Below are positions 4,604 to 57,518 of a stretch of DNA of 64,000 nucleotides, one piece after another. The notes under the pieces are model-generated. The model was not told where the DNA came from. It was given only the letters and a program-made list of their open reading frames with translations, and made no database searches. Every line of letters starts with the position of its first letter. The first letter of the stretch is position 1. The stretch is from Leptothermofonsia sichuanensis E412. Its GTDB lineage: Bacteria > Cyanobacteriota > Cyanobacteriia > Leptolyngbyales > Leptolyngbyaceae. The DNA is taken from contig NZ_CP072600.1 of assembly GCF_019891175.1 (NCBI RefSeq), positions 620,001-684,000 on the forward strand, read 5' to 3'. The translations under genes and the position numbers were made by a program.

Positions 4604-4606
4604 AAA

Positions 4607-23883: not shown

Positions 23884-24240
23884 ATGCGAGGGCGCAGCCG
23901 CGAGCTGCGTCAAAACATGACCCCGCCAGAGCGCAAACTGTGGGGGGCATTACGGAACAATCAACTGGGGGTTTCCTTTCGCCGTCAACACCCGATCGGC
24001 CCCTACATTGCCGACTTTTATTCCCGTGATGCACACCTTGTTGTCGAAGTGGATGGTGCAATTGCCCACAGCAGTCCAGAGGCGATCGCCCATGATGCTA
24101 ATCGCGATGCTTACTTGCGATCGCTGGGATTACGGACAATGCGTATTCCCGCCAAAGAAGTCATGACCAACATAGAGGGAGTCGCTGCGTGGATTCAGAC
24201 CACCAGTGCCGAACAATTTAGCCCTCAAGAGGCCGAGTGG
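23884..24240 (+). pseudogene. DUF559 (Vsr/PD-(D/E)XK-like) endonuclease domain inside the intein
   Basis: About 110 residues: RSRELRQNMTPPERKLWGAL, FRRQHPIGPYIADFY (Asp), LVVEVDG (Glu/Asp) and LGLRTMRIPAKEVMTNIEGV. This matches DUF559, a very-short-patch-repair-like nuclease fold. It is continuous with the intein C-terminal half in the same frame (23884-24405), but a frameshift separates it from the Hint N-half, which ends at a TGA near 23920. In this place it is most simply the homing endonuclease of the intein. The domain itself looks intact, with an ATG at 23884, and it contains the only two HIP1 sites I see in the island. Confidence 0.7.
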
Positions 24241-25055
24241 ATTGCCGCCAGTGACCTAAAAGCGGGTGACCTTGTTTTTTGGGGTTCCACCCTAGAAGGT
24301 GTGCGTTTGACCAACGTGGTAACAACCTCCAGCACAGAAGAAGTCTATGACTTAGAAGTAGAAGCCGCCCATTCCTACCTGACAGAGATTTGTGCCATCC
24401 ATAACTGGGGCGGTGGCGGAGCGGTTGGGGCGCAGGTGGATCATGTGCGATTTGGGGCGGTTTGCCATTCACACCTCCCGCAAGCGGATGATTGAGCTAC
24501 AGCGCAAACTGCACAGTGAGGGCAAACCCTATCGCGCCTTTGATGTCTATAACCTGGGGCGCTACGAGCGGCAGTGGTGGCAAAAAGATCGTTTGCAGGG
24601 GGCAGATGAGGAACATCGGCGGGTGATTCTGGAGTTTTTCAAAGCCGAGGTGCTGACCAATCCGCCGTCACCGCTGCTGTATGGGCGCAAAGCTGGGGCC
24701 TTTTGCCATGTGGATGGCATCGACTCGATGTTTACCGGCGAGGAAGTCAAACAGGTGGCGCAGGCCGTGGCCGCAGCGGGTGGGCGGGAGCGCTATTGCC
24801 TTGCTTGGGAATTTGAGATGGACTTGCATCTGCTGGTGAATGCCCTGTTGCAAGAGTTGGGCGTGAAACTGAAGCTGGTGCAGATTCCCCGCGAGATTAT
24901 GGAGAAAAACCGCAAATCGCCCCCGCCGTTTTTGGAAGTCGCCGTGTTGGCGGCGGAACCTGTTTATCGGAAAGACCCTCATCCCCTAACCCATGCTTCG
25001 CACGCCCTTCGGTCTACTCCCAAGCAGGGAGAAGGTGAACAAGACGGTTCGGCTC

Positions 25056-27312: not shown

Positions 27313-28724
27313 GTAATTGCTCAACTCAGCGGGAATAGGGATTGGTGAGGGTTTAAGGCCGCAGAAATGGACTCAAAAGCAGAAAGCCCTTGACGCTTAC
27401 CCGTATTCACCACAGAACGAATATCGGCGAACAAATCTTTGCCCCACTCGGAGCGAAACCCATTGGTCACCTTGCGAAAAATCACACTCATCCGCAGCGC
27501 CTGTTCACTGGCATTATTGGTCGGCGCAATCGTTGTGTCTGCCAAAAATAGAAACAGATGCTCCCGCAAGTTTCGGTAGCGCGTTTGCAGCCGAATGCCA
27601 TCGGCTTGAGTCGGACACAGGGCGAGTGCTTGGTCTAATTCTCGGTTGATCCGGCAGCGATATTGATATTGCGTCGAAGCAGACAATTGCTCCCAGCGTC
27701 GATGCCAAGCACAAGCGCGTAAGACTAACCGCTTCATCCGAGGCGAAAAGATCGTATCCCCGGCATCAATGCCATACTGACAATCGCGCAACTGATGGGC
27801 TAAGCAGACTTGCCAATCTGACGCAGGATGTTTCTTTTGAGCGCTGAACAAATCCGACACCCAAATCTCAGGACGATGCCCTGCCATCACGTGCTCAATC
27901 ACCTCTGCCCCACGGGACGGGCGAATCACATGCAAGCAGACTTGAGCATTTTGAAACACCCATTCCCATACCGTCTTGCCTCTCAGCCGCGCACTGGTTT
28001 CATCGCTGCCGACCAGTCGGGAACTGCGTAAGCGCTGCACAATCGCCGCAATCGATGGGTCTAATTGCGTTTTGACTCGTTGAAAAAGACTTGCCAAAGC
28101 ACCTTCGGAAATCGCTAAATTGAACACCTCCGACATCAGTTGACTCAGCCGCGCATAGCTGATTGCATGACCGTAGCGCAACGTCGTGACTAAGGCCGCC
28201 ACCCCATCGCCGAAGGGACTGCCGGGTTCTAGTCCCACCGGAACTGGAGCCAATTGAACTTCTCCACAACCCGGACAGGTGCAACCATACCGTTCCACTT
28301 GAGTCACAACCGGGCGAATCGGTGGAATCTCCACTTTTTCATAGCGTTGCAGCAATTGCTGAAGGGTTCCAGACAGACTCACACCACAAGTTTTGCACCT
28401 GTTCACTTCGGCGCGGATAATTTGGTCGGGATTCGGAGTCAGCTTACGCCCACCACCACAGCGTCCCACACTCGCACTTCGATTTATCTCTTGGGAGCCA
28501 GAAGGCTCGCTAACTGCTGCTTTGAATCCTTGAGCAGGGGGTAAACTGGAATTCTTGGATGTCTTTTTCGGCTTCTTTTGTTGCAACTTTTGCAGCTCAT
28601 CCCACAGTGTCTGGATCAGCCTGTCCTTATCAGAGTCTGTGAGTTGCTTGAGGTCTGGAAGCTCTTTCATGCCTTTAACTCTAGTGTTCTTTCTCGCCTT
28701 GTCAACCCCCAGTTGAGCAATTAC
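27313..28724 (-). mobile_element. IS66-family element with 8-bp target duplication, intact
   Basis: 1412 bp. Ends are the inverted repeats GTAATTGCTCAACT (27313-27326) and its complement (28711-28724). Both sides carry the 8-bp direct repeat CTTTCAAG (27305-27312 and 28725-28732), the duplication size typical of IS66. It has a single transposase gene without tnpA/tnpB accessory frames, as in the ISBst12-like subgroup. The perfect duplication and intact gene suggest a recent insertion. Confidence 0.9.
27321..28670 (-). CDS. IS66-family transposase (TnpC)
   Basis: 449 aa DDE transposase. In order: an N-terminal coiled coil with leucine spacing (LIQTLWDELQKLQQKKPKK), a Ser/Pro linker with KNSSLPPAQGFK, a zinc-binding domain (CKTCG ... 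CTCPGCGEV), then the catalytic core. The core has GSDETSARLRGKTVWEWVF, the CLAHQLRDCQYGIDAGDTIF helix, and TNNASEQALRMSVIFRK containing the final Glu, followed by DIRSVVNTGKRQG. All catalytic positions and the usual length are intact, so this is likely a functional copy. Confidence 0.9.
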   Translation of the reverse strand: MKELPDLKQLTDSDKDRLIQTLWDELQKLQQKKPKKTSKNSSLPPAQGFKAAVSEPSGSQEINRSASVGRCGGGRKLTPNPDQIIRAEVNRCKTCGVSLSGTLQQLLQRYEKVEIPPIRPVVTQVERYGCTCPGCGEVQLAPVPVGLEPGSPFGDGVAALVTTLRYGHAISYARLSQLMSEVFNLAISEGALASLFQRVKTQLDPSIAAIVQRLRSSRLVGSDETSARLRGKTVWEWVFQNAQVCLHVIRPSRGAEVIEHVMAGHRPEIWVSDLFSAQKKHPASDWQVCLAHQLRDCQYGIDAGDTIFSPRMKRLVLRACAWHRRWEQLSASTQYQYRCRINRELDQALALCPTQADGIRLQTRYRNLREHLFLFLADTTIAPTNNASEQALRMSVIFRKVTNGFRSEWGKDLFADIRSVVNTGKRQGLSAFESISAALNPHQSLFPLS

Positions 28725-28796
28725 CTTTCAAGATTCCGCTGCCCTTCGTCAAACCATTCCCTAGCCTCTTTCGCTGTACCCTCACGCGCCCTACCC

Positions 28797-29108
28797 ATGA
28801 CCTCCTCAACGCTCAATCCCACCGTTCTCGAACCTCTGTTTGCCCCCTGGCAAGAACCCAAAGCCCATCGTGTCCGGGCAGAAAAGTCCGGCGACCCCGC
28901 TGTGGTGAAACAGGGACGTAGAGCTTCCCCGATTGAAGTGGTCAATAACCTGCGCTCAGCAGTGCGAGAGTGGCGAGAAGCCTTCTACATCGGTGCCAGC
29001 GACACCACGATTCAACTGCTGAATCACTGGTTCAACCGCGCCCACCGTCATCGTTTCCCCTCCTCGGAGGGGGTAGGGGTGGGTAGTGAAGAATTTGAGT
29101 TTCGCTAC
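28797..29108 (+). pseudogene. N-terminal fragment of a restriction/helicase subunit (BPTD_3080-like)
   Basis: 104 codons from ATG 28797: SSTLNPTVLEPLFAPWQEPK, then IEVVNNLRSAVREWREAFYI and DTTIQLLNHWFNRAHRH, then EEFEFRYY where IS630 no. 4 cuts in. I recognise this as the start of the large type III-like restriction/helicase proteins (BPTD_3080-type) that accompany Mod-like methyltransferases, which fits the methyltransferase pseudogene upstream. A short G/C palindrome insertion (29057-29080, PSSEGVGVG) lies within it. The helicase and nuclease parts are not found in this window. Confidence 0.6.
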
Positions 29109-30064
29109 TATGGCCTTACGGGAGTACGTTAGGACAGTTTTTGAAAGCTGCATCAACACAATCACGGAAATTGTCAAATTCATCCCATCGTTGCCGCATC
29201 CAATTTTTGAGCACAAACCACCCATGCTCAATCGGATTCAAGTCCGGGGAATAGGGGGGCAAATACCAAATCTCACAACCCGCTGCAGCCACAATTTCAT
29301 CGATGGATTGCGAGCGGTGAAAACTGGCATTGTCAATCACAATCACCATCCCCGGTTGCACCTGAGGCAGCAAACACTGCTCTAACCACAGCTCGAATAC
29401 GTCGCGGTTGCATGAGCCTGCAAAGGTCAGGGGGGCCATCAACTGGTGTTGGCACAGCGCGGCAATCCAACTAACTCGTTCCCTGCGTTTGCCCGATTTG
29501 AGGGCAGGGAAGCGTTGTCCAATTTTGCAATAGCCATAGGGATAGTCTTCTCGATTGTCGATGCCGACTTCATCGACAAACATAATTTGGTCTGCCGTTT
29601 TTGTCTTCAAACGCTCCTCGAACGCTTGGCGCTGGAGTTCGTCCCGTTCACGGTAGCCGTAAGTTTTTTTTCCGACTCACCCCAATCTTTTTCAAGGCAT
29701 CACTGATGTTCTGTTGAGTGACGTTGTCCCCCCACAATTGAGCCATCTGCGCTTGCGTCTTGCCACCGTGCTGCCGGACAAAGGCGCGAAAGCGATCCCA
29801 ATCCGTGATTTTCTGCCCACGCCCGGTTTGAAATCCCGTTATGGCTTGGCAATCCCCCGTTTGTTCCAGGCGTTTCAGCCACAAGTCCAAGGTATTGCGA
29901 CTGATATGTAACATCCGGCAGACCTCACTTTTGCGTTCACCACGTCGGACAGCCTCGATCGCTTTGCGGCGAAGGTCGTCACTGTAGGGAGATGGCATGG
30001 TGTGACTCCTGACGCTAGTTCTATCTCTAGAATAGCGTCCTAACCCCTCTTCGTAGGGCTATAC
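29109..30064 (-). mobile_element. IS630-family element no. 4, complete
   Basis: Ends: the left TATGGCCTTACGGGAGTACG and the right, complemented, TATAGCCCTACGAAGAGGGG, both continuing into GTTAGGACG-like sequence. Same family as the truncated copy at 21588-22320. It cuts the restriction-subunit fragment on the left and abuts an IS256 remnant on the right. Confidence 0.8.
29116..29998 (-). CDS. IS630-family transposase, two frames joined at an A8 run
   Basis: N-terminal frame from ATG 29998: SPYSDDLRRKAIEAVRRGER and the helix-turn-helix EVCRMLHISRNTLDLWLKRL, up to SRKK at an A8 run (complement of 29664-29671). The -1 frame continues KTYGYRERDELQRQAFEERL, then MFVDEVGIDNREDYPYGYC (first Asp), VIVIDNASFHRS (second Asp) and YSPDLNPIEHGW (Glu), ending at 29116. 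The fused protein of about 290 aa keeps every catalytic residue. The last codons run into the terminal repeat. Likely functional if the frameshift occurs. Confidence 0.8.
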
Positions 30065-34183: not shown

Positions 34184-34987
34184 ATGGCGACGCAAATTTC
34201 CTGGTCGTTTGAAATCAGGCGGATCATTCTGGAGCAGTCGAAACGGGCGCACGTCGGGCATATTGGGTCTGCTCTTTCCATTGCTGATATTGTGGCTGCT
34301 CTGTATAGTGACCAGACCAGTACATTCGATCCGGGTAATGACGATCGCGATCGGCTGGTCCTTTCCAAGGGTCATGCGGTCCTGGCAATTTACGCGGCTC
34401 TATTTTTAAAGGGCTGGATCACGGAAGATCAGCTCAACACCTACTGTGGGGATGAAAGTCTCTTGGGAGTACATCCAGAGCATCTCCTGCGGGGAATTGA
34501 TTTTTCCACTGGCTCTCTGGGACAGGGATTGTCTCTGGGGGTGGGGGCTGCCCTGGCTGCACGGTTACAGCAGTCATCCCGGCGAGTGTTTGTGGTTGCC
34601 AGTGATGCGGAATGCAACGAAGGGTCGCTGTGGGAAGCCGTCATGTTTGCGGCTCACCATCAATTAGCGAATCTGATCGCCATCATTGACTTAAATGGAC
34701 AGCAGGCATTGGGCTACACCCAGGATGTGTTAAACCTGTCCCCGATGGCAGACCGCTGGCGAGCGTTTGGGTGGGATGTTCATGATGTGGATGGGCATGA
34801 TGTGGCAGCCATGCAAGCCACCATTGCAAACCTGGACACTACCACTGGGGCACCCCATGTGTTGATTGCCCACACCGTATTTGGCAAAGGTGTGTCCTAC
34901 ATGGAAAACCAGATCAAGTGGCACTATTGGCCCATGTCTGACGATGAGTATCAGCAGGCGATCGCAGAAATTGGAGTGAGGTCGTGA
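34184..34987 (+). CDS. Transketolase, N-terminal (thiamine diphosphate-binding) subunit
   Basis: 267 aa, half-size, matching the N-terminal half of transketolase. Seen: EQSKRAHVGHIGSALSIADI (active-site His region), LSKGHAVLAIYAAL, ECNEGSLWEAVMFAAHH followed by IDLNGQQALG (the TPP/metal-binding GDG..N region), and TVFGKGVSYMENQIKWHYWP. The partner domain is the next gene, overlapping by 4 nt, so the two should form a heteromeric enzyme. Transketolases move a two-carbon ketol unit between sugars. A split pair inside a glycosyltransferase cluster suggests sugar-precursor synthesis rather than central metabolism, which is inference. It is the first of five coupled genes. Confidence 0.85.
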   Translation: MATQISWSFEIRRIILEQSKRAHVGHIGSALSIADIVAALYSDQTSTFDPGNDDRDRLVLSKGHAVLAIYAALFLKGWITEDQLNTYCGDESLLGVHPEHLLRGIDFSTGSLGQGLSLGVGAALAARLQQSSRRVFVVASDAECNEGSLWEAVMFAAHHQLANLIAIIDLNGQQALGYTQDVLNLSPMADRWRAFGWDVHDVDGHDVAAMQATIANLDTTTGAPHVLIAHTVFGKGVSYMENQIKWHYWPMSDDEYQQAIAEIGVRS

Positions 34988-35913
34988 GAGTAGCACTGGT
35001 TAAAACGCTGGTGGAGTTAGCCACCACCGATCCTCGCATTATGCTGTTGACCGGGGATCTGGGCTATACAGTCCTGGAACCCTTTGCTGAGAAATTTCCA
35101 GAGCGGTTCTTGAATGTCGGCGTTGCTGAGCAAAATATGGTGGGCATTGCCACCGGGCTGGCAGAAGCAGGGTATATCCCTTTTCTCTATTCCATCGTCA
35201 CCTTTGCTTCCCTGCGCCCCTACGAATTCATTCGCAACGGTCCAATTCTGCATCAGTTGCCCGTCCGAATTGCCGGCATCGGGGGCGGATTTGAGTACGG
35301 TCATGCGGGACCGACCCACCATGGCCTGGAAGATGTGGGGGTGATGCGCGTGCAGCCTGGGATTACTCTGGTTGCCCCTGCCGACCATCAACAGGCACGG
35401 ACTGCCATTCAGGCAACCTGGGATATGCCGGGACCCGTCTATTACCGCCTGGGGAAGGACGATCGCACCACGATCCCTGAACTGGAAGGACGGTTTGAAC
35501 TGGGTCGGGTTCAGACTCTCTGTGAGGGGGAGGATATCGTCATAGTGGCGATGGGTCCTCTGGCGGGGGAAGCACTGACAGCGGCAAAAACCCTGGCTCA
35601 GCAAGGCATTGGCTGCACTGTCGTGGTGGTTGCCTGTCTCAACCCTGCTCCCGTTGCCGATCTGGTGAACATTCTGAGCCGATTCCGGGTAGCTCTGACG
35701 GTCGAAGCTCATTACATTGTGGGGGGGGTTGGTTCCCTTGTTTCCGAAGTCGTGGCTGAATCGGGGATTCGCTGCCGGGTGGTGCGCTGCGGCGTGAGAA
35801 CCACTCCCGATGGAGTGGGCGGTAGCCAGCGCTACCTGCAAGGAATGCACGGGTTGTCGTCAGAGGCACTGGTACGGACTGCAATACAGGCGCTGGAAAA
35901 GGTGGTGTCATGA
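34984..35913 (+). CDS. Transketolase, C-terminal (pyrimidine-binding) subunit
   Basis: 309 aa, carrying the pyrimidine-binding and C-terminal domains: IMLLTGDLGYTVLEPFAEKF, NVGVAEQNMVGIATGLAEAG (catalytic Glu), GPTHHGLEDVGVMRVQPGIT, then a C-terminal domain VAMGPLAGEALTAAKTLAQQ and VEAHYIVGGVGSLVSEVVAE. Start GTG 34984 overlaps the previous stop by 4 nt and its own stop overlaps the next gene likewise, implying translational coupling and equal amounts of both subunits. The same architecture occurs in split transketolases of archaea and of sugar-modification clusters. Confidence 0.85.
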   Translation: MRVALVKTLVELATTDPRIMLLTGDLGYTVLEPFAEKFPERFLNVGVAEQNMVGIATGLAEAGYIPFLYSIVTFASLRPYEFIRNGPILHQLPVRIAGIGGGFEYGHAGPTHHGLEDVGVMRVQPGITLVAPADHQQARTAIQATWDMPGPVYYRLGKDDRTTIPELEGRFELGRVQTLCEGEDIVIVAMGPLAGEALTAAKTLAQQGIGCTVVVVACLNPAPVADLVNILSRFRVALTVEAHYIVGGVGSLVSEVVAESGIRCRVVRCGVRTTPDGVGGSQRYLQGMHGLSSEALVRTAIQALEKVVS

Positions 35914-36608
35914 GTGATCATTTAATTTCAATCATCCTGCCGGTGTACAACCAGGCAGACCATATTGGGATTATTGTGCAGGAGTATGAGGCAGCACTGA
36001 CCAAGGTGCGCCAGCCCTACGAGCTGATTCTGGTGGTGAATAATTGCCGCGATCGCTCCCTGGAGGTGTGTCAGGCTCTGGCGGAGCAATCCAGTACCAT
36101 TCGGGTGGTTCACAGTCAGAAAGGAGGCTGGGGTTTAGCGGTTAAATTGGGGTTGCAGGCGGCTCAGGGAGACATTCTCTGCTACACCAACTCAGCCCGC
36201 ACCAGTCCGGAGGATCTGACCCTGATGCTGTTGTATGCTGTGGTTTATCCGAATGTGGTGATCAAGGCAAACCGCAAAATTCGGGATAGTCTGGAACGAC
36301 GAATTGGCTCGCTCCTCTATAACCTGGAGTGCCGTACCCTGTTTGATCTTTCTTACTGGGACATCAACGGCACCCCCAAAGTATTTCCCAGATATTTTGA
36401 GCGGTTGTTGAAGCTGCAATGCAACGATGATCTGATTGATGCTGAATTTAATGTCATCTGTCGGCAGGAAAATTACCCCATGCTGGAAGTACCCATCTTT
36501 TCGACCAAGCGGCATGGTGGCCGATCAACCACAAACTATGGCTCTGCCTTCAAGATGTACGTGGGAGCGTTTCGACTCTGGCGCAGGATGCGCGGAGCCA
36601 GGCAATGA
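35910..36608 (+). CDS. Family 2 glycosyltransferase
   Basis: 232 aa GT-A fold enzyme: LISIILPVYNQADHIGIIVQ at the N-terminus, ELILVVNNCRDRSLEVCQAL, HSQKGGWGLAVKLGLQAAQG, and a degenerate DXD region (ILCYTNSARTSPEDL, lacking Asp pairs). RYFERLLKLQCNDDLIDAEF and VPIFSTKRHGGRSTTN lie near the end. Similar to DPM1/UDP-glucose:lipid-phosphate type enzymes, but the missing DXD is odd and may point to altered metal use. ATG 35910 overlaps the transketolase stop by 4 nt. No membrane helices. Donor and acceptor unknown. Confidence 0.8.
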   Translation: MSDHLISIILPVYNQADHIGIIVQEYEAALTKVRQPYELILVVNNCRDRSLEVCQALAEQSSTIRVVHSQKGGWGLAVKLGLQAAQGDILCYTNSARTSPEDLTLMLLYAVVYPNVVIKANRKIRDSLERRIGSLLYNLECRTLFDLSYWDINGTPKVFPRYFERLLKLQCNDDLIDAEFNVICRQENYPMLEVPIFSTKRHGGRSTTNYGSAFKMYVGAFRLWRRMRGARQ

Positions 36609-37795
36609 GTACACCTTCGCAGGAAGAGTTGGATCACCTCTGGGCACGCCACCATGCGGAGTGGCGCGATCCGGCTCAGATTACCAGCCAGTGGGAAGAG
36701 GCGGCAGCAACCGAACCCAAATTGTTGCGGCATAAAGCCAGGGGTGACTGGTGGGATGTTCTGGAGGATTGCGGGATTACCCTGCTGGTCACTCGTGAGT
36801 ATGAGCATCTGGTGATTGCCATGCATGCCTGTGGTGGCAAGCCCGTGGTAACTTACCAGCGCCTGCCCCACCCCTCAGGTTTGACCATTGACCGCACCAG
36901 GGGAGTGATTCATGTTGCCAGTACCCGCAACCCGAATCAGATTTATGACTTCATGCCCGTCACCGGGATGATGCAGCGGTTGGATGTCCGAGTGGATGAA
37001 TTGACCGATCGCCCCCTGGTGCCGGTGCGATCGCGGTTCTTTCCTGGGTGCCTTTACATGCACGACCTGGCCATGATTGGGGATACCCTCTATGCCAACT
37101 CAGTGGGGCAGAATGCGATCGTCCGGTTTGATGCCAGTGGCAATTTTGAGCGCGTCTGGTGGCCCCTTTGCATTGAAACGGAAGCTGGCATTGTATTTGG
37201 GCAAAACCACCTGCAACTCAACTCGATCGCCGCGGGCACTGACCTGGAATCCTCCTTCTTTTCTGCATCTCTGGATAAAATATCTGCCCGCCGTCCCGGT
37301 CACAAAAACTTTCCGGTGGATAAGCGGGGTGTGATTTTCTCTGGGAAAACCCGTGACGTTGCCGTGCGGGGCTTAACCCGTCCCCACTCTGCCCGGCTTC
37401 ACAATGGTCAGGTCTGGGTTGATAACAGCGGCTATGGTGAGCTGGGCTTTGGGGCAGATGGCAGATTTCAACCAGTAATCAAACTACCGGGTTGGACCCG
37501 TGGCTTATGTTTTTACAACCAGATTGCCTTTGTCGGCACTTCCCGTGTCATTCCCCGCTTCCGCCAGTATGCGCCAGGTCTGGATGTGGACTCCAGCCTG
37601 TGTGGAGTTCATGCGGTGGACATTCAATCTGGTAAAGTGTTGGGCAGTTTACTGTGGGCATACGGCAATCAAATTTTTGCGGTTGATTGGGTGCCCCATT
37701 CGTTTACCACCGGGTTTCCCTTTACCGCAGGGGCAAAACGCACCCCAGACCGAGACAAGAAGTTTTTCTATGCTTTCAAGAAAGGAGATTCGTGA
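36605..37795 (+). CDS. TIGR03032-like conserved protein, predicted beta-propeller
   Basis: 396 aa. I recognise the pattern of TIGR03032 proteins: LLVTREYEHLVIAMHACGGK, LPHPSGLTIDRTRGVIHVAS, PGCLYMHDLAMIGDTLYANS, NHLQLNSIAAGTDLESSFFS, GLTRPHSARLHNGQVWVDNS, GWTRGLCFYNQIAFVGTSRV and VHAVDIQSGKVLGSLLWAYG. The repeated short beta-strand blocks suggest a propeller fold. Members are often found with glycosyltransferases and TPR genes, but no activity is established. ATG 36605 overlaps the GT2 stop; the stop at 37795 touches the next ATG. Its place inside the coupled run suggests a direct role in making or handling the sugar. Confidence 0.75.
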   Translation: MSTPSQEELDHLWARHHAEWRDPAQITSQWEEAAATEPKLLRHKARGDWWDVLEDCGITLLVTREYEHLVIAMHACGGKPVVTYQRLPHPSGLTIDRTRGVIHVASTRNPNQIYDFMPVTGMMQRLDVRVDELTDRPLVPVRSRFFPGCLYMHDLAMIGDTLYANSVGQNAIVRFDASGNFERVWWPLCIETEAGIVFGQNHLQLNSIAAGTDLESSFFSASLDKISARRPGHKNFPVDKRGVIFSGKTRDVAVRGLTRPHSARLHNGQVWVDNSGYGELGFGADGRFQPVIKLPGWTRGLCFYNQIAFVGTSRVIPRFRQYAPGLDVDSSLCGVHAVDIQSGKVLGSLLWAYGNQIFAVDWVPHSFTTGFPFTAGAKRTPDRDKKFFYAFKKGDS

Positions 37796-38719
37796 ATGAG
37801 CGCTGACTTTCGGCTACTGATGATTGGAGCCATGTACGAAAACGGCGGGAATACAACCCACCGTTTTCTGGATGGACATCCCCAGATGTTTGTCTATCCG
37901 TTTGAGTCGCAGGTCGGTACTCGGTTGGTGATGGATCACCTTTCCTCCCTGTTTCCAGTCAAGTATCGCTGGCCTGTATTTGCCCTGGATGCCACTCCCT
38001 ATCAGGACTACAAAGCCATCATTGATGAAGAAGGCAAAATCCGGGCACGCACACCCCATGTCAGTAAGTTCCGCCACATGCCCTTCGACTTTTCCGATGA
38101 TGAGCGTTGCCGGATCTATGAAAGCTATGTGGAAAAGACCGGGCGATCGCGGGCCAATAATATGGCCGCCTTCTTCCGCGCCACCTTTGACGCCTGGAAA
38201 GATTACAACCGCACAGGTGAAGAAACCGTTTATGTCGGCTACAGCCCGATTATTGGCGTCGATGGCGACAAAATTCTGGCAGATCTGCCCCAGTCCCATG
38301 TCCTCCATGTCGTTCGCAACCCCTGGTCTGCCTACGCCGATACAAAAAAACGCCCGGTACCGATGTCCCTGGCTGACTATATGCTGGGCTGGACGCTGAA
38401 CCAGTACTATGCCTTGCTGTACCAGAAAAAATATCCCGATCGCTTCCATATTGTGCGGGCAGAGGATGTCATGGCAGATTCTTACAAGACCCTGGGAGCT
38501 ATCTGTGAAAAGCTGGGGCTGGAGGCGGCGACTTCCCTTAAAACCCCCAGTTGGAACGGTAATGCCCTGGAAGAAGTCTACCCCTGGGGAACCATTCGGA
38601 AAGCCAACCCGGATGCCAACAAAGCAACCGCTGAGGAGTTGTCGATGGAAGAGCGTGATGAAATTCGTGCCCGCACCTGGCAATATCTGGAAGTGTTTGA
38701 CTATAAGTCCTTTATTTAG
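37796..38719 (+). CDS. Sulfotransferase-family protein
   Basis: 307 aa. The N-terminal nucleotide-binding loop-like segment GAMYENGGNTTHRFLDGHPQ resembles the PAPS 5'-phosphosulfate loop of bacterial sulfotransferases (S-G-R-S-G-T-T...HP). HVLHVVRNPWSAYADTKKRP matches the 3'-phosphate-binding strand and helix. A C-terminal KLGLEAATSLKTPSWNGN and EERDEIRARTWQYLEVFDY complete the fold. The usual Lys/Arg in the first loop is replaced, so activity is likely but not certain. In this cluster it could sulfate a polysaccharide residue. It begins directly at the stop codon of the TIGR03032-like gene. Confidence 0.7.
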   Translation: MSADFRLLMIGAMYENGGNTTHRFLDGHPQMFVYPFESQVGTRLVMDHLSSLFPVKYRWPVFALDATPYQDYKAIIDEEGKIRARTPHVSKFRHMPFDFSDDERCRIYESYVEKTGRSRANNMAAFFRATFDAWKDYNRTGEETVYVGYSPIIGVDGDKILADLPQSHVLHVVRNPWSAYADTKKRPVPMSLADYMLGWTLNQYYALLYQKKYPDRFHIVRAEDVMADSYKTLGAICEKLGLEAATSLKTPSWNGNALEEVYPWGTIRKANPDANKATAEELSMEERDEIRARTWQYLEVFDYKSFI

Positions 38720-38842
38720 TTATTTAGATCGATCACTCAAGATGCAACCATCTCCAGATCCCCGGTGGCTGGAGGAATAACCTGAGCCAGTTTGATCCCA
38801 TTCAAACAAGACACCGGGATCTTGACCTTCAAAGACAGGCAA

Positions 38843-39814
38843 ATGAAGCGGGCAATTGTTACAGGAGCAACCGGGTTTGTCGGCGCAAACCTTGCCCGAC
38901 GCCTTTTACAGGATGGGCATGAGGTGCATCTGCTGGTGCGCCCCAATTTTAGCCCCTGGCGAATTGAGGCGATTCGCAGCCATGTCCAAACTCATGTAGT
39001 GGACATGGCTGATTTCGATGCCCTGCTGCCCCTCGTGGAACACATTCAACCTGACTGGATCTTCCATCTGGCAGCGCATGGAGCCTATTCCTACCAGACG
39101 GACTGGCAGGCGATTACTCGAACGAACGTGAACAGCACCTTTAATCTGGTGCAGGCTTGCGTCAAATCTGGATTTGAGGCATTTGTCAACACAGGCTCAT
39201 CCTCAGAGTACGGCTTTAAGCCCTACGCCCCGGCAGAAACGGAATGGCTGGAACCCAACAGCTACTATGCGGTCACCAAAGCTTCAGCAACGCTGTTTTG
39301 TCGCTATACGGCCCAGAGCCAGCAGGTGCATATCCCCACGCTGCGGCTCTACTCGATCTATGGAGCCTATGAAGAACCAACCCGCTTAATGCCAACGCTG
39401 ATTGTGAAAGGGTTAGGGGGCGAGCTACCGCCCCTGGTCAATCCTGACATTGCCCGCGATTATGTCTATGTCGATGATGTCAGTGATGCCTATTTGCTGG
39501 CAGCAACCCAACCTGGACAGGAGTGGGGAGCCGTTTACAATGTGGGCAGTGGAGTGCAGACATCCCTGCGTCAGGTCGTGGATGTGGCGCGGCGGGTGTT
39601 GGCTATCCCGGTTGAACCTGACTGGGGGTCGATGCCCAACCGCCACTGGGACACCAACGTCTGGGTTTCAGATAATCGCCAGATTCAGGCAGCCCTGGGC
39701 TGGAAACCAAATTACTCCTTTGAACAGGGATTTCAGCAAATGGTTCAATGGTTCCAGGATCATCCAGAGATGCATCGGTTTTATTGCGATCGCCTGCAAT
39801 CTAAAACGTCCTAG
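38843..39814 (+). CDS. NAD-dependent epimerase/dehydratase (extended SDR)
   Basis: 323 aa from ATG 38843 (RAIVTGATGFVGANLARRLL follows); the frame is open from 38792, but the extra residues are not family-like. Rossmann motif TGATGFVGANL, IFHLAAHGAYSYQTDW, NTGSSSEYGFKPYAPAE, catalytic YAVTK (Tyr/Lys) and RDYVYVDDVSDAYLLA are all intact. Likely a nucleotide-sugar epimerase, 4-epimerase or dehydratase; the substrate cannot be read. It starts 123 nt after the sulfotransferase gene. The stop lies next to a degraded family C MITE. Confidence 0.85.
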   Translation: MKRAIVTGATGFVGANLARRLLQDGHEVHLLVRPNFSPWRIEAIRSHVQTHVVDMADFDALLPLVEHIQPDWIFHLAAHGAYSYQTDWQAITRTNVNSTFNLVQACVKSGFEAFVNTGSSSEYGFKPYAPAETEWLEPNSYYAVTKASATLFCRYTAQSQQVHIPTLRLYSIYGAYEEPTRLMPTLIVKGLGGELPPLVNPDIARDYVYVDDVSDAYLLAATQPGQEWGAVYNVGSGVQTSLRQVVDVARRVLAIPVEPDWGSMPNRHWDTNVWVSDNRQIQAALGWKPNYSFEQGFQQMVQWFQDHPEMHRFYCDRLQSKTS

Positions 39815-39923: not shown

Positions 39924-39970
39924 GGCAGCTATCAATCTGTCGTTGATTGCATCATCGGAGGAGGAGTGGA

Positions 39971-42790
39971 GTGCTGGCATTGGGTCTTTCAATCTTTTTA
40001 TTGATATTTTGGGGTGCTCTCGGTTACGCCACCCTCAGTCTTCTGCATCGGCAAAACAGTCCCCTGCACAATGCCCTGATTGCTCCGGCAGTCGGTATGG
40101 CAGCGACCCTTCTCCCCGTCTTCTGGTTGAATCGGGCAGGGATTCCTGTGGGCAACTTTGGCATCCCTTTGACCATTGCCCTGGCAGCAACAACAGCCAC
40201 CATTCTCTGGAAACTCCGTCCCAAATTTCCCTGGAAAGACTTTCTACCCTTTGCCGCCATCCTCTTGATTGCCCTTCTGCTGACAGGTCGCCCATTACTT
40301 GAGTTCGGGTTTGATTGGGTCAGTTATGGCAATCAGGATCTGACCTACTATGTGGCTTCCGCAGACCGTTTCCTCCACCACGGCTATCTGGCTGAACCGG
40401 GACCCGCGATGGCTCAGGGGAAAGACTACACCCTTAACGTTTACGGGATGATCTATGATGGGCATCGCACCGGGTCTGATCTTTTGCTGGCCTGGGTATC
40501 AAGCATCACGGGTTTGGCTGTCACCAAAGCTTTGATGCCGCTCATTATGGCATTTCTCGTGGCAATGATCAGTGCAGCAGGCGCACTGGTTTACATTTCC
40601 AGTCATTCATACTGGCAGGCACTTCTGGTTTGTGTACTGGTTGGTGCATCAGCACTCAATAGTCTGGGTGCCATTTATCAACTCCTGGCACAGGTTTCTG
40701 GCATCACCCTGATGGTTTGCCTGGTTGCCATGATGTCTGGCTGTTTCACCCCAGCAAGTACTGCCATTGTTATCAAGCGCAGTGTGCTGGCAGGACTTCT
40801 AACAGCCGCATTGCTAATAGCTTACCCGGAGGCGGCTCCCTTTTTGGGACTCACTTTAGTCCTTTATACCGTCGTGGGAGTATGGCGCCAAAAAATCCCC
40901 ACAAAGCTTCTGACCACGGTATTTGCTGTATCAATTTTGTCTGCTGTACTGGCAACTAACCTTTATTTAGCAGGTGTTTGGAACTACTTTCGATCTGAAA
41001 CCTCTTCCAAGGTTCTGAAGGCAGTGGATCCCAACGAGATCATTTTCCCTCATTACTTAGTCCCTAAAGGACTGGCTGGTTTATGGGGATTGCAGCCAAT
41101 CAATGCTGTATTGCCGGAACCCTGGTCGTCACTGGCGATCGCAGCAGGCGGTGTGCTACTGGTTACAGTTCTGATTGGTGGCTCCTGGTTAGTGTGGCAT
41201 GGTCAGGCAACTGCAACCACAACGATTGCTATGTTGGGTTTTGGTATTTTGTTATTTTTTATTCGAAATGATTTCGGGATATTCAAGTTAGCTATGTTTG
41301 TACAACCATTTATGATTAGCACATTTGTTTTGGTGCTGATTCATGGGTTTGCAAACCAGAAGCGATCGCGGTTCTTAATCATTGTGCTGCTGAGTGTAAT
41401 TGGCTTTATTAATCTGCACACACAAAATTACTACGTAGAAATCAGTCGTGGTTATATTTCGGGAGGCTTTGTCGAAATTCCAAGAGCTTCACCGTTCAGG
41501 CTTTACACGAAATTAGAGAACTTGATGGCTTCAATTCCCTCGGATAATTTGATTGTGGATACACCCAACGTATCCCTAGGAGGCATTCAGTATTTATATA
41601 CCAAGGGCAAACGAACGGTCTTTCCTGGATTTACCACCCTGAGAAATCGAGACAAAATTGTCTTAAAGCCGGGGGATAGCCTTGAGAATTTTGACTTACA
41701 CGATCGCCCCCAGCAATCGACTCAAAATGAATTTATCTGGGCTGATAGCCAGTTGGTGAAAACCATTACCGCTGAGAAAGATGCTTTCCTGATTGCTGCA
41801 CCTCCCCAAATGGAACTGTTCAATCGCTGGTTTCATCAGTCTGGTGATGACTCTGTCGCAACCCACTTTCGCAGTCAATCTCTTCAGAAAATCAGAAACC
41901 ATTTAATTTTTATTCCATCCTCACTGGGTAAACATTACTTTCTCGATCTGGCGGCTGGCAGTTCAGCGGAAGCCTCCTTTTACCAGCTAGAGCCAGACTA
42001 CTTTGTGCCGGATGGGACAATGGCTGGAATTGGCAGGCACTTTCTGTTTCAGGTCCTTAACCCCTCTGAGCAGGTCAGGTTTGTGCTTGAAATGACTGCC
42101 AGTTTGAAAAGTGATGGAGAAAACCAGCTACCTCCTCCTGCTGCCATTGGAGAGAGTCGCCAGCCGTTTCCAATGGTAGGGCGTGGCTCTGCCAGGGTGT
42201 TCTCTCCAACGCTGACCCCTCAAGTTATTCGCGATCGCACCTATGCCTCCATTGACATGGGCGTGAACGGTAAAACCTTTCCAACGGTCAAGACGGGCTT
42301 AATGCGTCTGTATGGCAATGACATTCCTTCAGATAATCGCAAGCTGGTTGGGTTTGCACGGGATATTTCGTTGATTTCTGAGCAGGACTACCTGAACCTG
42401 ACCCCACCAGCCTCTGTCAGCCAGTTTCCCGCTGACTTAATGAATCACCAACTGGAATATTCTGGGGTGTACGAAGATGGCTGGGTTTCTGAAGCAGCAT
42501 TTTTTAGTTTAGCTCAACCAGCCCCATCCACGCCTTTAGTGGTTCGGGGTACCGTCCCAGCCATCGGGGATTCCACCTTTTCCACCGAACTCAAGGTGCT
42601 GGTCGATGGTCAAGAACTTGCGCGACGCACCCTGCAACCCGGTGAATTTAACCTTCGATTACCTGTTTCAGGACAGGGGCGTCACCGGGTAGACTTACGC
42701 TTCTCTCAATGGCAGAATTTGCCTGATCCTGACAAACGACCTGTAGCCGCCAGACTTGCATTTCTTGGCTTTAGCAATGAAACAAATTAG
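39971..42790 (+). CDS. Large multi-spanning membrane protein of the polysaccharide locus
   Basis: 939 aa from GTG 39971, chosen for GGAGGAGGAG at 39957-39966 (the frame is open from 39947). The first ~500 residues have about 11-12 hydrophobic helices, with large loops such as FDWVSYGNQDLTYYVASADR and GYLAEPGPAMAQ after the third helix, as in GT-C lipid-linked-sugar glycosyltransferases. The last ~440 residues are soluble, beta-rich and probably periplasmic (VDTPNVSLGGIQYLYTKGKR, VDGQELARRTLQPGEFNLRL). No named family is recognised. An acidic Asp/Asn-rich first loop is what GT-C enzymes need, so a glycosyltransferase role is inferred. Overlaps the next gene by 14 nt. Confidence 0.65.
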   Translation: MLALGLSIFLLIFWGALGYATLSLLHRQNSPLHNALIAPAVGMAATLLPVFWLNRAGIPVGNFGIPLTIALAATTATILWKLRPKFPWKDFLPFAAILLIALLLTGRPLLEFGFDWVSYGNQDLTYYVASADRFLHHGYLAEPGPAMAQGKDYTLNVYGMIYDGHRTGSDLLLAWVSSITGLAVTKALMPLIMAFLVAMISAAGALVYISSHSYWQALLVCVLVGASALNSLGAIYQLLAQVSGITLMVCLVAMMSGCFTPASTAIVIKRSVLAGLLTAALLIAYPEAAPFLGLTLVLYTVVGVWRQKIPTKLLTTVFAVSILSAVLATNLYLAGVWNYFRSETSSKVLKAVDPNEIIFPHYLVPKGLAGLWGLQPINAVLPEPWSSLAIAAGGVLLVTVLIGGSWLVWHGQATATTTIAMLGFGILLFFIRNDFGIFKLAMFVQPFMISTFVLVLIHGFANQKRSRFLIIVLLSVIGFINLHTQNYYVEISRGYISGGFVEIPRASPFRLYTKLENLMASIPSDNLIVDTPNVSLGGIQYLYTKGKRTVFPGFTTLRNRDKIVLKPGDSLENFDLHDRPQQSTQNEFIWADSQLVKTITAEKDAFLIAAPPQMELFNRWFHQSGDDSVATHFRSQSLQKIRNHLIFIPSSLGKHYFLDLAAGSSAEASFYQLEPDYFVPDGTMAGIGRHFLFQVLNPSEQVRFVLEMTASLKSDGENQLPPPAAIGESRQPFPMVGRGSARVFSPTLTPQVIRDRTYASIDMGVNGKTFPTVKTGLMRLYGNDIPSDNRKLVGFARDISLISEQDYLNLTPPASVSQFPADLMNHQLEYSGVYEDGWVSEAAFFSLAQPAPSTPLVVRGTVPAIGDSTFSTELKVLVDGQELARRTLQPGEFNLRLPVSGQGRHRVDLRFSQWQNLPDPDKRPVAARLAFLGFSNETN

Positions 42791-44125: not shown

Positions 44126-45064
44126 ATGCTGACTATTTTTGCCACTCCTAAACGCTTTCAGGGACTGATCGGCACGCTTCAGCGCAATGCCATTCAAAGC
44201 TGGCTGATGCTGCGTCCCCAACCGGAAGTGATTTTGCTGGGAGATGACGCCGGGACGGCTGACGTTGCCAGGGAGTTTAACCTGAAACACATTCCCCAGG
44301 TGCAACGGAATGAATTTGGGACTCCGCTGGTCAGGTCTTTATTTGAAATTGCCCAGCGGGTTGGCAAAGGTCCCCTGTTTACCTATGTCAACTCAGACAT
44401 TATCTTGATGAGTGACTTTATCCAGGCAGTGCAGCAGATCCGGTTCAGGCGGTTTATGCTGACCGGGCAACGGTTGAACCTGGATGTGACTGAGCAGATT
44501 TCGTTTACTGAAGAATGGGAGCATTCGTTGCGCGATCGCGCCGCCCAGTCGGGGGAGCTTGCCGGTCCCCATGCTATGGACTATTTCGTGTTTACCCGTG
44601 ACACCTATACCGATATTCCCCCGTTTGGGATTGGTCGCCCCTGCTGGGACAACTGGATGGTTTATAAAGCACTGAATCTGGGCATTCCACTGATTGATGC
44701 CACCGGAGCCATCATGGCGATTCATCAGAACCATGACTATAACCACCATCCCCAGGGAAAGGAAGGTGTTTACGAAGGACCTGAGGCACAGTACAGCCTG
44801 CAATTGATCGGTGGCAGGCACTATGCTTACTTCATGCTGGATCTGGCAACCTGGCAGTTGACCTCCGAGGGACTCAGGCGACCGAAGTGGACCCGTGAGC
44901 GGTGCGATCGCTACCTGGATATGATGCCTCTGGCACGCCCCCAGATGAAAATCTGGGCAACCCCTCTGCTCAACCTGCTGCGAATGGATAACCCGCTTCC
45001 TCAAGTTGCCTCGAGACTTCAGAAAATTCCAACCAGACTTGTCCGCATCCTCCCCAGAAAATAA
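44126..45064 (+). CDS. Glycosyltransferase-like protein
   Basis: 312 aa. Seen: MLTIFATPKRFQGLIGTLQR then RNAIQSW, VILLGDDAGTADVAREF, FGTPLVRSLFEIAQRVGKGP, FTYVNSDIILMSDFIQAV (DXD-like NSDI), MDYFVFTRDTY and a C-terminal WDNWMVYKALNLGIPLIDAT with HQNHDYNHH. The layout resembles GT-A glycosyltransferases of cyanobacterial polysaccharide clusters, but I cannot name the family. ATG 44126 lies 145 bp after the preceding GT2, a gap with 'CCCTGTCCCCTATCTTCTGTCCCC' low-complexity repeats. Confidence 0.65.
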   Translation: MLTIFATPKRFQGLIGTLQRNAIQSWLMLRPQPEVILLGDDAGTADVAREFNLKHIPQVQRNEFGTPLVRSLFEIAQRVGKGPLFTYVNSDIILMSDFIQAVQQIRFRRFMLTGQRLNLDVTEQISFTEEWEHSLRDRAAQSGELAGPHAMDYFVFTRDTYTDIPPFGIGRPCWDNWMVYKALNLGIPLIDATGAIMAIHQNHDYNHHPQGKEGVYEGPEAQYSLQLIGGRHYAYFMLDLATWQLTSEGLRRPKWTRERCDRYLDMMPLARPQMKIWATPLLNLLRMDNPLPQVASRLQKIPTRLVRILPRK

Positions 45065-45067
45065 GGC

Positions 45068-45135
45068 GTGAGGATTTAATAAGCTGTATAAATAACCACA
45101 AAGTCATAAAGGACACAAAGCAAGTTCTTTCTGAT
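45068..45135. repeat. Repeat family B copy
   Basis: GTGAGGATTTAATAAGCTG ... ATAAAGGACACAAAGCAAGT then TCTTTCTGATGACATCC. It matches 7947-8010 closely and 62370-62440 more loosely. Confidence 0.65.
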
Positions 45136-45188
45136 GACATCCGCTATCTCAGGTTGTATGCTTAGCTGAATGGTGAGGTGGAGGAGAA

Positions 45189-45947
45189 ATGAAGCTGTCG
45201 GTTGTGATTCCTGCCCATAATGAGCAGGGTTGCCTGTATGACACAGTCGTTCAGGTGGTCAGCGTTCTGGAGCGTGAGCGGATCCGTCATGAGGTGTTGA
45301 TTGTTGATGACAACAGTACGGATGACACGCTGATCATCTGCCGCCAGTTGTCAGTTGCTTTTCCAACGGTGCGTTACATTCAAAATCCGCCCCCGAATGG
45401 GTTTGGTTTTGCCGTGCGCTGTGGTCTGGAAAACTTTGAAGGCGATGCGGTTGCGATCGTCATGGCAGATGCCTCCGATGACCCTGAAGATCTGGCCAAA
45501 GGGTATTACAAACTGCTGGAAGGGTTTGACTGTGTGTTTGGTTCCCGCTTTATCAAGGGTGGGGCAGTGGTTGATTACCCGGTTCATAAGCTGCTAATTA
45601 ATCGATTGGCAAACTGGTTCGTCAAGACTCTGTTTGGTCTGCGCTACAACGACACTACCAATGCCTTTAAGCTGTATCGGCGAGAGGTGATTGAGGGAAT
45701 TCAGCCCATCTTGAGTCACCACTTCAATTTGACCGTGGAACTGCCATTAAAGGCAATTGTGCGCGGCTTTAGCTATGCTGTGATTCCGATTCGCTGGTAC
45801 AACCGGAAGGCGGGAATCTCCAAGTTAAAGATTAAGGAGATGGGTAGTCGCTACCTGTTCATCGTTCTCTATGTATGGCTGGAAAAGTACCTGTCTCGTG
45901 GAGACTATCATCGCCGCAACCGGATTGCTGAGAAAGTGAATGCCTGA
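45189..45947 (+). CDS. Polyprenyl-phosphate glycosyltransferase (DPM1-like GT2)
   Basis: 252 aa GT2 enzyme close to dolichol-phosphate mannose synthase-type proteins: LSVVIPAHNEQGCLYDTVVQ, VLIVDDNSTDDTLIICRQL, PNGFGFAVRCGLENFEGDAV, the catalytic VMADASDDPEDLAKGYYKL, and FGSRFIKGG. It continues with NDTTNAFKLYRREVIEGIQP and PIRWYNRKAGISKLKIKEMG. Such enzymes charge a polyprenyl-phosphate with a single sugar as donor for membrane GT-C enzymes, which would suit the two large membrane proteins nearby. Its stop overlaps the next gene by 8 nt. Confidence 0.85.
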   Translation: MKLSVVIPAHNEQGCLYDTVVQVVSVLERERIRHEVLIVDDNSTDDTLIICRQLSVAFPTVRYIQNPPPNGFGFAVRCGLENFEGDAVAIVMADASDDPEDLAKGYYKLLEGFDCVFGSRFIKGGAVVDYPVHKLLINRLANWFVKTLFGLRYNDTTNAFKLYRREVIEGIQPILSHHFNLTVELPLKAIVRGFSYAVIPIRWYNRKAGISKLKIKEMGSRYLFIVLYVWLEKYLSRGDYHRRNRIAEKVNA

Positions 45948-47007
45948 GAAAGTATTAATCCCTGGTGGGGCTGGCTTTGTGGGCAGTTCCCTGGCGATCG
46001 CCCTGAAAACCCGCCACCCGGACTGGGAGATTACCTGTTTCGATAACCTCAGGCGGCGTGGGTCTGAGCTGAACCTGCCCCGGTTTAAGTCCCTGGGGAT
46101 TCAGTTTGTGCATGGCGATGTGCGATCGCCCTCGGATCTCGATCCCTCAGCGTTTGAGGTCGATACCATCCTGGATTGCTCCGCAGAACCCTCTGTGCTG
46201 GCAGGCTTTAGTTCACCCCAGTACGTGCTGCAAACCAATCTACTGGGCACCATCAATCTGCTGGAACTGGCAAGGCAGGTCAGGGCGCGGTTGCTGTTTC
46301 TCTCCACCAGCCGGGTGTATCCCATCCAGGCACTCAAGTCCCTGAATTTGAAGGAACTTCCCACCCGGTTTGAGCTTGCCCCCGACCAGTCCCTGCCAGG
46401 GGCGTCGGCTGAGGGAATTTCAGAAGCGTTTGCTTTGCAGGGGGCACGGTCCCTCTACGGCACCACCAAGTTAGCCTCAGAACTGTTAATTGAAGAATAC
46501 CGGGATGCCTATGGGCTACCAGCCATCATCAACCGCTGTGGCGTGCTGACAGGTCCCTGGCAGATGGGCAAGGTAGACCAGGGAGTGTTTGTCCTCTGGG
46601 TGGCTGCCCATTACTTTGGTAAACCACTCAGTTACATCGGGTTCGGCGGTACTGGAAAACAGGTCAGAGATCTGTTGCATGTGGATGATCTACTGCAACT
46701 GGTGGACTACCAGCTAGACCATTTTTCTGAACTGGATGGGTCGGTGTTTAACGTGGGTGGGGGCACCGCGAATAGCCTGTCCCTGCTGGAAACCACCCAC
46801 CTCTGTCAGGAAATTACCGGTAAACGGATTGAAATCCGGTCGGTGTTAGAAGAACGCCCTGGAGATATGCCTGTTTTCATCACTGATTCTGCAAAGGTGA
46901 TTCAACAAACGGGCTGGAAACCGATGAAAGCCCCCCTCACAACCTTGCAGGAAATCTATGACTGGATTGTACAAAACGAGGAAACATTAAGAACCGTTTT
47001 ACTGTAG
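45940..47007 (+). CDS. NAD-dependent epimerase (CDP-paratose/tyvelose epimerase-like)
   Basis: 355 aa extended SDR. Rossmann motif IPGGAGFVGSSLAIAL, CFDNLRRRGSELNLPRFKSL (the 'FDNL.RRGS..NL' signature of CDP-paratose 2-epimerase-type enzymes), DCSAEPSVLAGFSSP, catalytic YGTTKLASE and GKQVRDLLHVDDLLQL. Members use tightly bound NAD to epimerise C2 of a nucleotide sugar. No CDP-glucose pathway genes are visible in the window, so the true substrate is open. Overlaps the DPM1-like gene by 8 nt and is thus coupled to it. Confidence 0.8.
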   Translation: MPEKVLIPGGAGFVGSSLAIALKTRHPDWEITCFDNLRRRGSELNLPRFKSLGIQFVHGDVRSPSDLDPSAFEVDTILDCSAEPSVLAGFSSPQYVLQTNLLGTINLLELARQVRARLLFLSTSRVYPIQALKSLNLKELPTRFELAPDQSLPGASAEGISEAFALQGARSLYGTTKLASELLIEEYRDAYGLPAIINRCGVLTGPWQMGKVDQGVFVLWVAAHYFGKPLSYIGFGGTGKQVRDLLHVDDLLQLVDYQLDHFSELDGSVFNVGGGTANSLSLLETTHLCQEITGKRIEIRSVLEERPGDMPVFITDSAKVIQQTGWKPMKAPLTTLQEIYDWIVQNEETLRTVLL

Positions 47008-47116
47008 AGTAGTTTTTGGGTAAAGAAGTGTATCTGGCAGCCTGTTTTGGCTGATTGGTCCAGGATCAGTCCCACCCCCCTGACAGCCAGATGGCGATTG
47101 CCCCCCTTCCAGTGAA

Positions 47117-49372: not shown

Positions 49373-49615
49373 GGATTTTATAATCTGAAATTTCACCCCA
49401 GAGGCACGGAGAACACAGAGCTATTCCTCGGTGCCCTCTGTGTCTCTGTGGTAAAACCCTAAGTTTTTCGGTTGATTGAATTACAATTCTCTATCCCCTT
49501 GTCCCCCGTCTCCTGTCCCTTGCTGCTTGCTTAAATCCATACCCCTCAGAAAACTCACACCAGACTCCCATCATCAGGGTCTTTACTTACTACTCAATGG
49601 AGGATTGCTCAACAA
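49373..49615. repeat. Gap with inverted 'CAGAGGCACGGAGAACACAG' repeat
   Basis: At 49396-49452 the arms CAGAGGCACGGAGAACACAG and CTCTGTGTCTCTGTGG form a hairpin of the family B style. The region 49490-49530 is a 'CCCCTTGTCCCCCGTCTCCTG' run. ATGGAGGA at about 49598-49605 is the probable ribosome-binding site of the next gene. Confidence 0.55.
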
Positions 49616-57405: not shown

Positions 57406-57409
57406 TTCC

Positions 57410-57518
57410 CGGTAGTCTGTCAAATGAACTTTGATGGGTAGCTGAATGACAGAAAGCTGGCCAGGGTTAAATTTTGTGGGTCTGCGACCCGTCAAAATTT
57501 TCCTGGCAGAACACCAGG
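57410..57518. repeat. MITE family C, inverted copy
   Basis: Begins GGTAGTCTGTCAAATGAAC and ends ATTTTCCTGGCAGAACACCA, 4 bp after the IsiA-type stop codon. Internal palindrome GGGTCTGCGACCC is preserved. It lies between the antenna gene and the flavodoxin gene. Confidence 0.75.

Follow-up and report, generated by a model that had tools for sequence, protein, structure and literature searches.

The question raised by this locus is what a transketolase divided into two subunits is doing in a tightly packed run of genes with a glycosyltransferase, a protein of the DUF4915 family and a sulfotransferase. The window, meaning here the whole stretch of DNA that was analysed, comprises 64,000 nt of Leptothermofonsia sichuanensis E412 (NZ_CP072600.1:620,001-684,000, forward strand; the genome is a single contig of 6.43 Mb), and the genes concerned lie at 34184-39814 of it. 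They almost certainly represent a conserved functional unit, a six-gene cassette which probably makes an unusual sulfated cell-surface sugar by means of its own split transketolase.

Five open frames in the same direction occupy 34184-38719 with successive gaps of -4, -4, -4 and 0 nt, which agrees with the original prediction, made from the sequence alone, of five coupled genes with 4-nt overlaps or direct stop/start contact. All five are on the forward strand and have Pfam scores above the family cut-offs. The transketolase is encoded by tktN (34184..34987), the N-terminal subunit that binds thiamine diphosphate (ThDP; PF00456 Transketolase_N, 142.8 bits) and which belongs to what is referred to below as the cassette clade, and by tktC (34984..35913), the pyrimidine/C subunit, which has a GTG start (PF02779 Transket_pyr, 101.5 bits; PF02780 Transketolase_C, 73.6 bits). 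These are followed by GT2a (35910..36608), a small family-2 glycosyltransferase related to polyprenyl-phosphate sugar synthases (PF00535 Glycos_transf_2, 48.2 bits), the DUF4915 gene (36605..37795), encoding a TIGR03032-like beta-propeller protein (PF16261, 189.9 bits against a gathering score of 35), and ST (37796..38719), encoding a sulfotransferase of the type that uses 3'-phosphoadenosine 5'-phosphosulfate (PAPS; PF13469 Sulfotransfer_3, 37.6 bits). The predicted five-gene unit stands as regards these genes but not in its extent, as it runs on to 39814 because a sixth gene, SDR, is part of the conserved set. This gene (38843..39814, forward strand) encodes an extended NAD-dependent nucleotide-sugar epimerase/dehydratase/reductase (PF01370, 155.7 bits, scored on the frame starting one codon ahead of the ATG). 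Its open frame reaches upstream to a TTG at 38792, and the start chosen, an ATG at 38843 that is 123 nt past ST, matches the MKR start of the homologues.

The DUF4915 protein was scanned against 84,980 genomes, each representing a different species, and only close relatives were retained, which gave nine loci: two in Chloroflexota, one in a Nitrospina and one in a Victivallaceae metagenome-assembled genome (MAG), and five in genomes titled Melainabacteria, Obscuribacterales or Cyanobacteria SZAS-4. The association of the genes exceeds chance, because loci picked by DUF4915 homology alone also hold tktC, GT2a and ST (9/9), tktN (8/9) and an SDR orthologue (7/9). The locus without tktN, L038, is on a contig that begins within tktC. 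Identities to the window range from 41% (SDR of L044) up to 82% (ST of L036). A genome-neighbourhood search had been suggested with the original prediction, and the outcome is that the set recurs in other lineages; the idea that the gene order is unique to the Leptothermofonsia genome was therefore rejected.

Among sampled genomes (E <= 1e-50), the DUF4915 clade was detected in 4/251 of the phylum of L036, including that of L036 itself, and in 15/240 of the class of L041, five of which were already known. A single positive genome, in each case the one that had yielded the locus, was found among 213 genomes of the phylum of L044 and 77 of the phylum of L038. In the phylum of the window, some DUF4915 match is present in 50 of 385 other genomes, none above 82 bits compared with 941 bits for the self-match, and the top tktN of another genome scores 245.5 bits against 597.9. 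Trees and distances were obtained from the 15 loci holding all of tktN, tktC, GT2a, DUF4915 and ST (L038, L100 and L103-L108 were excluded), and the pairwise distances of these five genes correlate at 0.51-0.85 across them.

Thirteen further loci bring the total to 22, all picked by DUF4915, so that this gene is present in 22/22 by construction. Adjoining it are GT2a and ST at every locus, tktC at 16, tktN at 14 and an SDR orthologue at 12. The order tktN-tktC-GT2-DUF4915-ST is kept in 12 of the 14 tktN-bearing loci; ST-SDR leads in L036 and L037, and SDR is divergent in L097 and L098. Six loci (L103-L108) consist of GT2-DUF4915-ST alone, and four of these six genomes have an unlinked tktN-tktC-SDR operon (L121-L124) with an SDR 47-50% identical to that of the window, and in a fifth (G985) a cassette-type tktN is present as a fragment at the edge of a contig. 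As the genomes with only the triad mostly carry this separate operon, the cassette is composed of two modules, tktN-tktC-SDR and GT2-DUF4915-ST. In the 240 genomes of the class of L041, cassette-clade tktN was found in 15 at 412 bits or more, compared with 284 for the next best match. The tktN and DUF4915 clades occur together in 13 of these genomes, each alone in two and neither in 223 (Fisher p 1e-17, a value that ignores kinship and includes five genomes found beforehand via DUF4915, which had pointed to this class).

The two-subunit transketolase had been described as dedicated, and this is upheld by a separate 673-aa transketolase frame elsewhere in the Leptothermofonsia genome, so the pair is not the sole transketolase of the cell. 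Frames of more than 600 aa were detected in 17 of the 20 cassette genomes checked, that of the window included, the check having excluded the Chloroflexota genomes of L096-L098; the exceptions are G394, with a 449-aa frame, and G392 and G388, with none. A housekeeping role for the cassette enzyme was rejected given this coexistence. By sequence comparison the cassette transketolase is a distinct clade. Its tktN is 57-74% identical to the cassette relatives and at most 48% identical to others among the matches listed, and the ThDP motif (SDAECNEG in the window) starts with SDAE in 22/22 cassette-clade tktN, compared with [G/S]DGE in 28/29 other split or fused relatives. Both SDAE and GGGxEY are invariant in the clade.

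Other transketolase features are retained. The catalytic Glu of tktC is present (GVAEQN), with the AEQN motif in 22/24 tktC and the remaining two cut by contig starts, and the conserved His residues of the N subunit (His26, 64, 97 and 247) are invariant. In human transketolase, His416 and Asp424 are ligands of the acceptor phosphate and hydroxyl. When tktC was aligned to the human and Carboxydothermus transketolases, His416 fell on the invariant Gly100, Ser420 on the invariant Glu104, and Asp424 on position 108, which is Ala in the window and Ala, Asn or Gln across the set. Because the equivalents of His416 and Asp424 are replaced, tktN/tktC is classed, from its residues, as a transketolase homologue with an altered acceptor pocket and not as an ordinary transketolase.

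The Tyr143 and Lys147 of the YxxxK motif of SDR are invariant (numbering begins one residue before the ATG). Its best scores against the structural database were to UDP-glucose 4-epimerase (4zrm) and MoeE5, with GDP-6-deoxy-D-lyxo-4-hexulose reductase close behind, and since the top matches span these enzymes it is described as a putative extended nucleotide-sugar enzyme that could act as an epimerase, dehydratase or reductase. The likeness of GT2a to GT2 polyprenyl-phosphate sugar synthases holds for the family-2 domain, which is present in 10/10 members, and fails for the usual metal-binding motif. The sequence matches ArnC and dolichyl-phosphate mannose synthase, and at the DXD site TN[S/A/L]ART is found in 24/24 sequences, aligning with DAD of dolichyl-phosphate mannose synthase, with WD[I/V]NGTPK farther along. 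GT2a may be a metal-independent transferase.

The description of the fourth protein as TIGR03032-like is borne out as a likeness, through the PF16261 score, and not as membership, as the NCBIfam TIGR03032 score of 110.2 bits is under the cut-off of 251.5. The sequence had no match among solved structures. The predicted model is a beta-propeller (mean predicted local distance difference test score, pLDDT, 77.3; predicted template-modelling score, pTM, 0.82) which matches the nidogen YWTD propeller (Z 25.1, root-mean-square deviation (rmsd) 2.8, 242 aligned). Naming an activity by fold was rejected as too general, as the model fits YWTD, paraoxonase and virginiamycin-lyase propellers alike.

ST is the most conserved gene of the set (59-82% identity to relatives). 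Its model (mean pLDDT 79.3, pTM 0.84) has a predicted PAPS-sulfotransferase fold, matching such enzymes over almost its full length, with the Synechococcus Ols sulfotransferase domain 4gox the best (Z 18.5, rmsd 4.0, 245 aligned) and tyrosylprotein sulfotransferases at Z 17.4-18.2. The 3'-phosphate motif VRNPWSA is present in 24/24 ST. The 5'-phosphosulfate loop of PAPS sulfotransferases normally carries Lys or Arg; here MYENGGN is found at the 5' loop in 24/24 (MYENGGNTTHR in the window), unlike the usual form. Sulfation, which had been put forward as possible, is thus supported at the level of the predicted fold and the 3'-phosphate motif.

Starting from the observed cassette, its two modules and their co-occurrence, the predicted fold classes and the altered motifs, we infer an acceptor, a product, an order of steps and a role for each module. 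The reading that we prefer, with a probability of roughly 0.4, is ketol transfer to a keto nucleotide sugar, a step by SDR, mounting by the GT2 and sulfation. The first module, tktN-tktC-SDR, would make the sugar: with a ketose phosphate as donor and a keto nucleotide sugar as acceptor, the split transketolase would transfer a two-carbon ketol (hydroxyacetyl) group, and SDR would either generate the acceptor keto group or reduce the newly formed one, giving a C2-branched, octose-like sugar comparable to those of the yersiniose and octose pathways. The second module, GT2-DUF4915-ST, would sulfate this sugar and mount it, the probable carrier being polyprenyl phosphate or a growing glycan; the DUF4915 propeller may have a sugar-binding or sugar-processing role. 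That a ketone-acceptor split transketolase, a metal-independent GT2 and ST are common to the distant phyla and together make surface sugars of a new, sulfated and C2-branched class is a more tentative proposal, and on balance a doubtful one.

Several observations weigh against the ketol-transfer pathway. Activity of GT2a is uncertain, as its sequence is without the usual metal-holding residues. The equivalents of His416 and Asp424 are gone in many other split transketolases too, and for this reason the altered pocket alone does not indicate a ketone acceptor. The two modules do not always travel together: the sixth genome with only the triad, G949, has GT2-DUF4915-ST without a cassette tktN, and G910 and G939 hold cassette-clade tktN with no sulfotransferase match in either genome (in each, a contig ends at tktN or tktC, and an assembly gap and a true absence of ST are therefore indistinguishable). 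Nor is each module always intact. In G910 the SDR orthologue is 2.7 kb from tktN-tktC; L042, L043, L099 and L100 keep tktN-tktC (a remnant in L100) without an SDR orthologue, another SDR family being present beside ST or one gene beyond; and a second copy in G994 (L126:3358-6821) is tktN-tktC-GT2-ST without a DUF4915 gene. The GT2 and ST of this copy are 98% identical to those of the L100 copy, itself cut, and a recent duplication or a mix-up in the assembly may account for it. In addition, according to the available part of PMC12247030, the putative keto-sugar substrate of the antibiotic miharamycin could not be isolated from knock-outs, and Pau7, the sole characterised branch-ketone reducer in the available passages, is an aldo-keto reductase and not an SDR.

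Two of these genomes also contain related genes of separate note. In G949 there is a weak sulfotransferase-profile match (67.5 bits) at C74:5302-6069, inside a 634-aa frame that is possibly a fused, distant relative. The cassette-type tktN-tktC of G910 is accompanied by a different GT2 (L127:4671-10092, a region that includes the SDR orthologue 2.7 kb away), and this set is possibly a variant of the sugar pathway.

Aldehydes are the acceptors normally taken by transketolases, and with the catalytic Glu and the four conserved N-subunit His residues in place, the cassette enzyme could be an ordinary aldehyde-acceptor transketolase. Its product would be a particular ketose or higher-carbon sugar phosphate (for instance a xylulose, heptulose or octulose unit), and activation, transfer and sulfation of this product would follow. 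This is a serious contender that we nevertheless consider unlikely, as the residue aligned with human His416 is replaced, and no kinase, isomerase or nucleotidyltransferase was seen among the genes common to the loci, where many flanking open reading frames (ORFs) were named by eye. The nature of the product could also differ. The compactness of a set found in widely differing gene neighbourhoods, and the resemblance of the GT2 to polyprenyl-phosphate sugar synthases, would suit a sulfated glycolipid or small secreted metabolite in place of a polysaccharide unit; set against this are the several neighbourhoods with glycosyltransferases, nucleotide-sugar enzymes, ABC-2 exporters or PMT-like membrane proteins, which make it a distinctly less probable outcome.

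Simpler roles for the transketolase fare worse. The pair is a genuine member of the transketolase family by Pfam and might just provide the adjoining polysaccharide genes with more pentose, erythrose or sedoheptulose phosphate. A separate frame of more than 600 aa in 17/20 genomes, the invariants specific to the clade (SDAE and GGGxEY) and the recurrence of the same partners even when unlinked render this improbable. The enzymes acting on apulose-4-phosphate and sulfofructose are also split transketolases, so a catabolic enzyme with unrelated biosynthetic neighbours was considered; it is very improbable, since the genes that constantly accompany the pair encode a GT2, a sulfotransferase and an SDR, and no recurring catabolic partner was seen.

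The cassette is the head of a glycan locus, because it is followed downstream by more glycosyltransferases, SDRs, a methyltransferase and polytopic membrane proteins. Glycosyltransferase and nucleotide-sugar genes around the cassette, joined by ABC-2 exporter genes in the two loci examined by Pfam, count in favour of the preferred reading. Beyond SDR is a large polytopic membrane protein (39947..42790, forward strand; no Pfam match), to which a crude hydropathy count gives 12 segments, a possible partner in glycan transfer. The association is loose: at least one protein of at least 350 aa with at least seven segments is present in 20/22 relative loci, these being of mixed kinds and counted with no background control. 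A second gene set, at 44126-51338, is possibly part of this pathway in a wider sense. Relatives of one of its products, SDR3 (49616-50680), with 61-62% identity, are found at three unlinked loci, no more than ~11 kb from tktN: L124:15489-18001 (G885), where they are accompanied by SDR2 and GT2c relatives; L125:1-1215 (G985), with a relative of the methyltransferase of the set; and L128:4-1593 and 4402-5040 (G939), with relatives of SDR2 and of this methyltransferase.

Horizontal transfer of the cassette is likely, though not proven, and is favoured because of the patchy spread over distant phyla and the transposase-like ORFs upstream. The best concatenated tree groups the window with five Chloroflexota rows and one Victivallaceae row in a starred set of seven, and the eight rows of the Melainabacteria class lie apart; a single clade of the window with that class was not rejected by the approximately unbiased (AU) test (p-AU 0.078). 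As the nine named loci all come from MAGs, the single placements in Nitrospina and Victivallaceae may be binning errors. Searches of plasmids gave only distant matches to GT2a and DUF4915 (best rows 25-31% identity), and ST had no match in phages and plasmids. The transposase-like ORFs, at 27321-29998, comprise one long and two short frames, the latter resembling halves of one gene (translations read by eye). Elsewhere in the window, an ORF at 23884-24495 appears by eye to have a small nuclease-type domain leading into a Hint/intein-like stretch, and the region 56305-59898 looks like an iron-stress set of the isiA-isiB type, with a photosystem II CP43-type chlorophyll-binding protein (56305-57405, by Pfam) followed by flavodoxin-like and hydrolase-like ORFs and a CRP-like regulator (these three by eye). 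The CP43-type protein identifies the genome as cyanobacterial.

The TIGR03032 family shares the Pfam domain DUF4915 with the cassette protein, and five annotated plasmid regions carrying it (L129-L133) were viewed. In one of these, from Gloeothece verrucosa (L131), genes for a sulfotransferase and a GT2 lie no more than ~5 kb away, as does galE. The family differs in that none of the five regions has an annotated transketolase, and in four there are no adjoining cassette partners except single glycosyltransferase or SDR genes. In four of the five the TIGR03032 gene adjoins a giant gene for a surface or secreted repeat protein (choice-of-anchor Q twice, Ig-like, autotransporter), and in two the product is far longer than the domain.

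No open-access paper was found for TIGR03032, DUF4915 or 'split transketolase', and the earlier statement that no described pathway with this gene set is known is matched by our own search, in which none was found in the open-access literature. The available part of a paper on the sulfated capsule of Cobetia contains transketolase once, in a figure legend (PMC11766843). Do transketolases build branched sugars on ketones? For this question the cassette supplies compact candidates from other phyla. Its partner genes hint at a sulfated and probably surface-bound product, and its natural division into two modules tells which genes go together; a defined partner set is also now available for a relative of the TIGR03032 propeller family. 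If the more tentative proposal of a ketone-using cassette common to distant phyla is true, its transketolase would be, to our knowledge, the first of this kind known from anything but an antibiotic cluster, and the cyanobacterium, Chloroflexota and Melainabacteria would make sulfated, C2-branched surface sugars of a new class.

Among solved structures, the top-scoring relative of both subunits is the split transketolase of Carboxydothermus hydrogenoformans (PDB 6yaj, 6yak), which is likewise two-chain and differs in keeping the acceptor-pocket His and Asp. The wps-2 exopolysaccharide cluster of Actinoplanes missouriensis combines a split transketolase with a GT2; it has two DegT aminotransferases, and no sulfotransferase, DUF4915 or SDR is named in the available part of the source (PMC13390465). 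Closer in proposed chemistry are miharamycin and amipurimycin, for which a split transketolase and an oxidoreductase have been proposed, without proof, to branch the sugar by hydroxyacetyl transfer to a keto sugar. The function of these transketolases is described as 'still pending', and the same 2025 review lists 13 putative branching split transketolases, all from Streptomycetes and none characterised in vitro (PMC12247030, available part). They differ from the cassette in serving Streptomyces antibiotics and in that no GT2, propeller or sulfotransferase is mentioned in those passages, and the likeness drawn here is one of gene make-up and proposed chemistry. Two-carbon branching is also carried out by the ThDP enzymes YerE (yersiniose) and AviB1/B2, Pau11/12 and EvdU5/S3 (octose or eurekanate), which, in the available parts of the sources, are of decarboxylase or dehydrogenase type (YerE with pyruvate) and not transketolases. 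Like the reaction proposed here, theirs places two carbons on a 4-keto sugar, and the new ketone is afterwards reduced in paulomycin, with the same proposed for yersiniose (PMC12247030, PMC4753412, PMC10338323).

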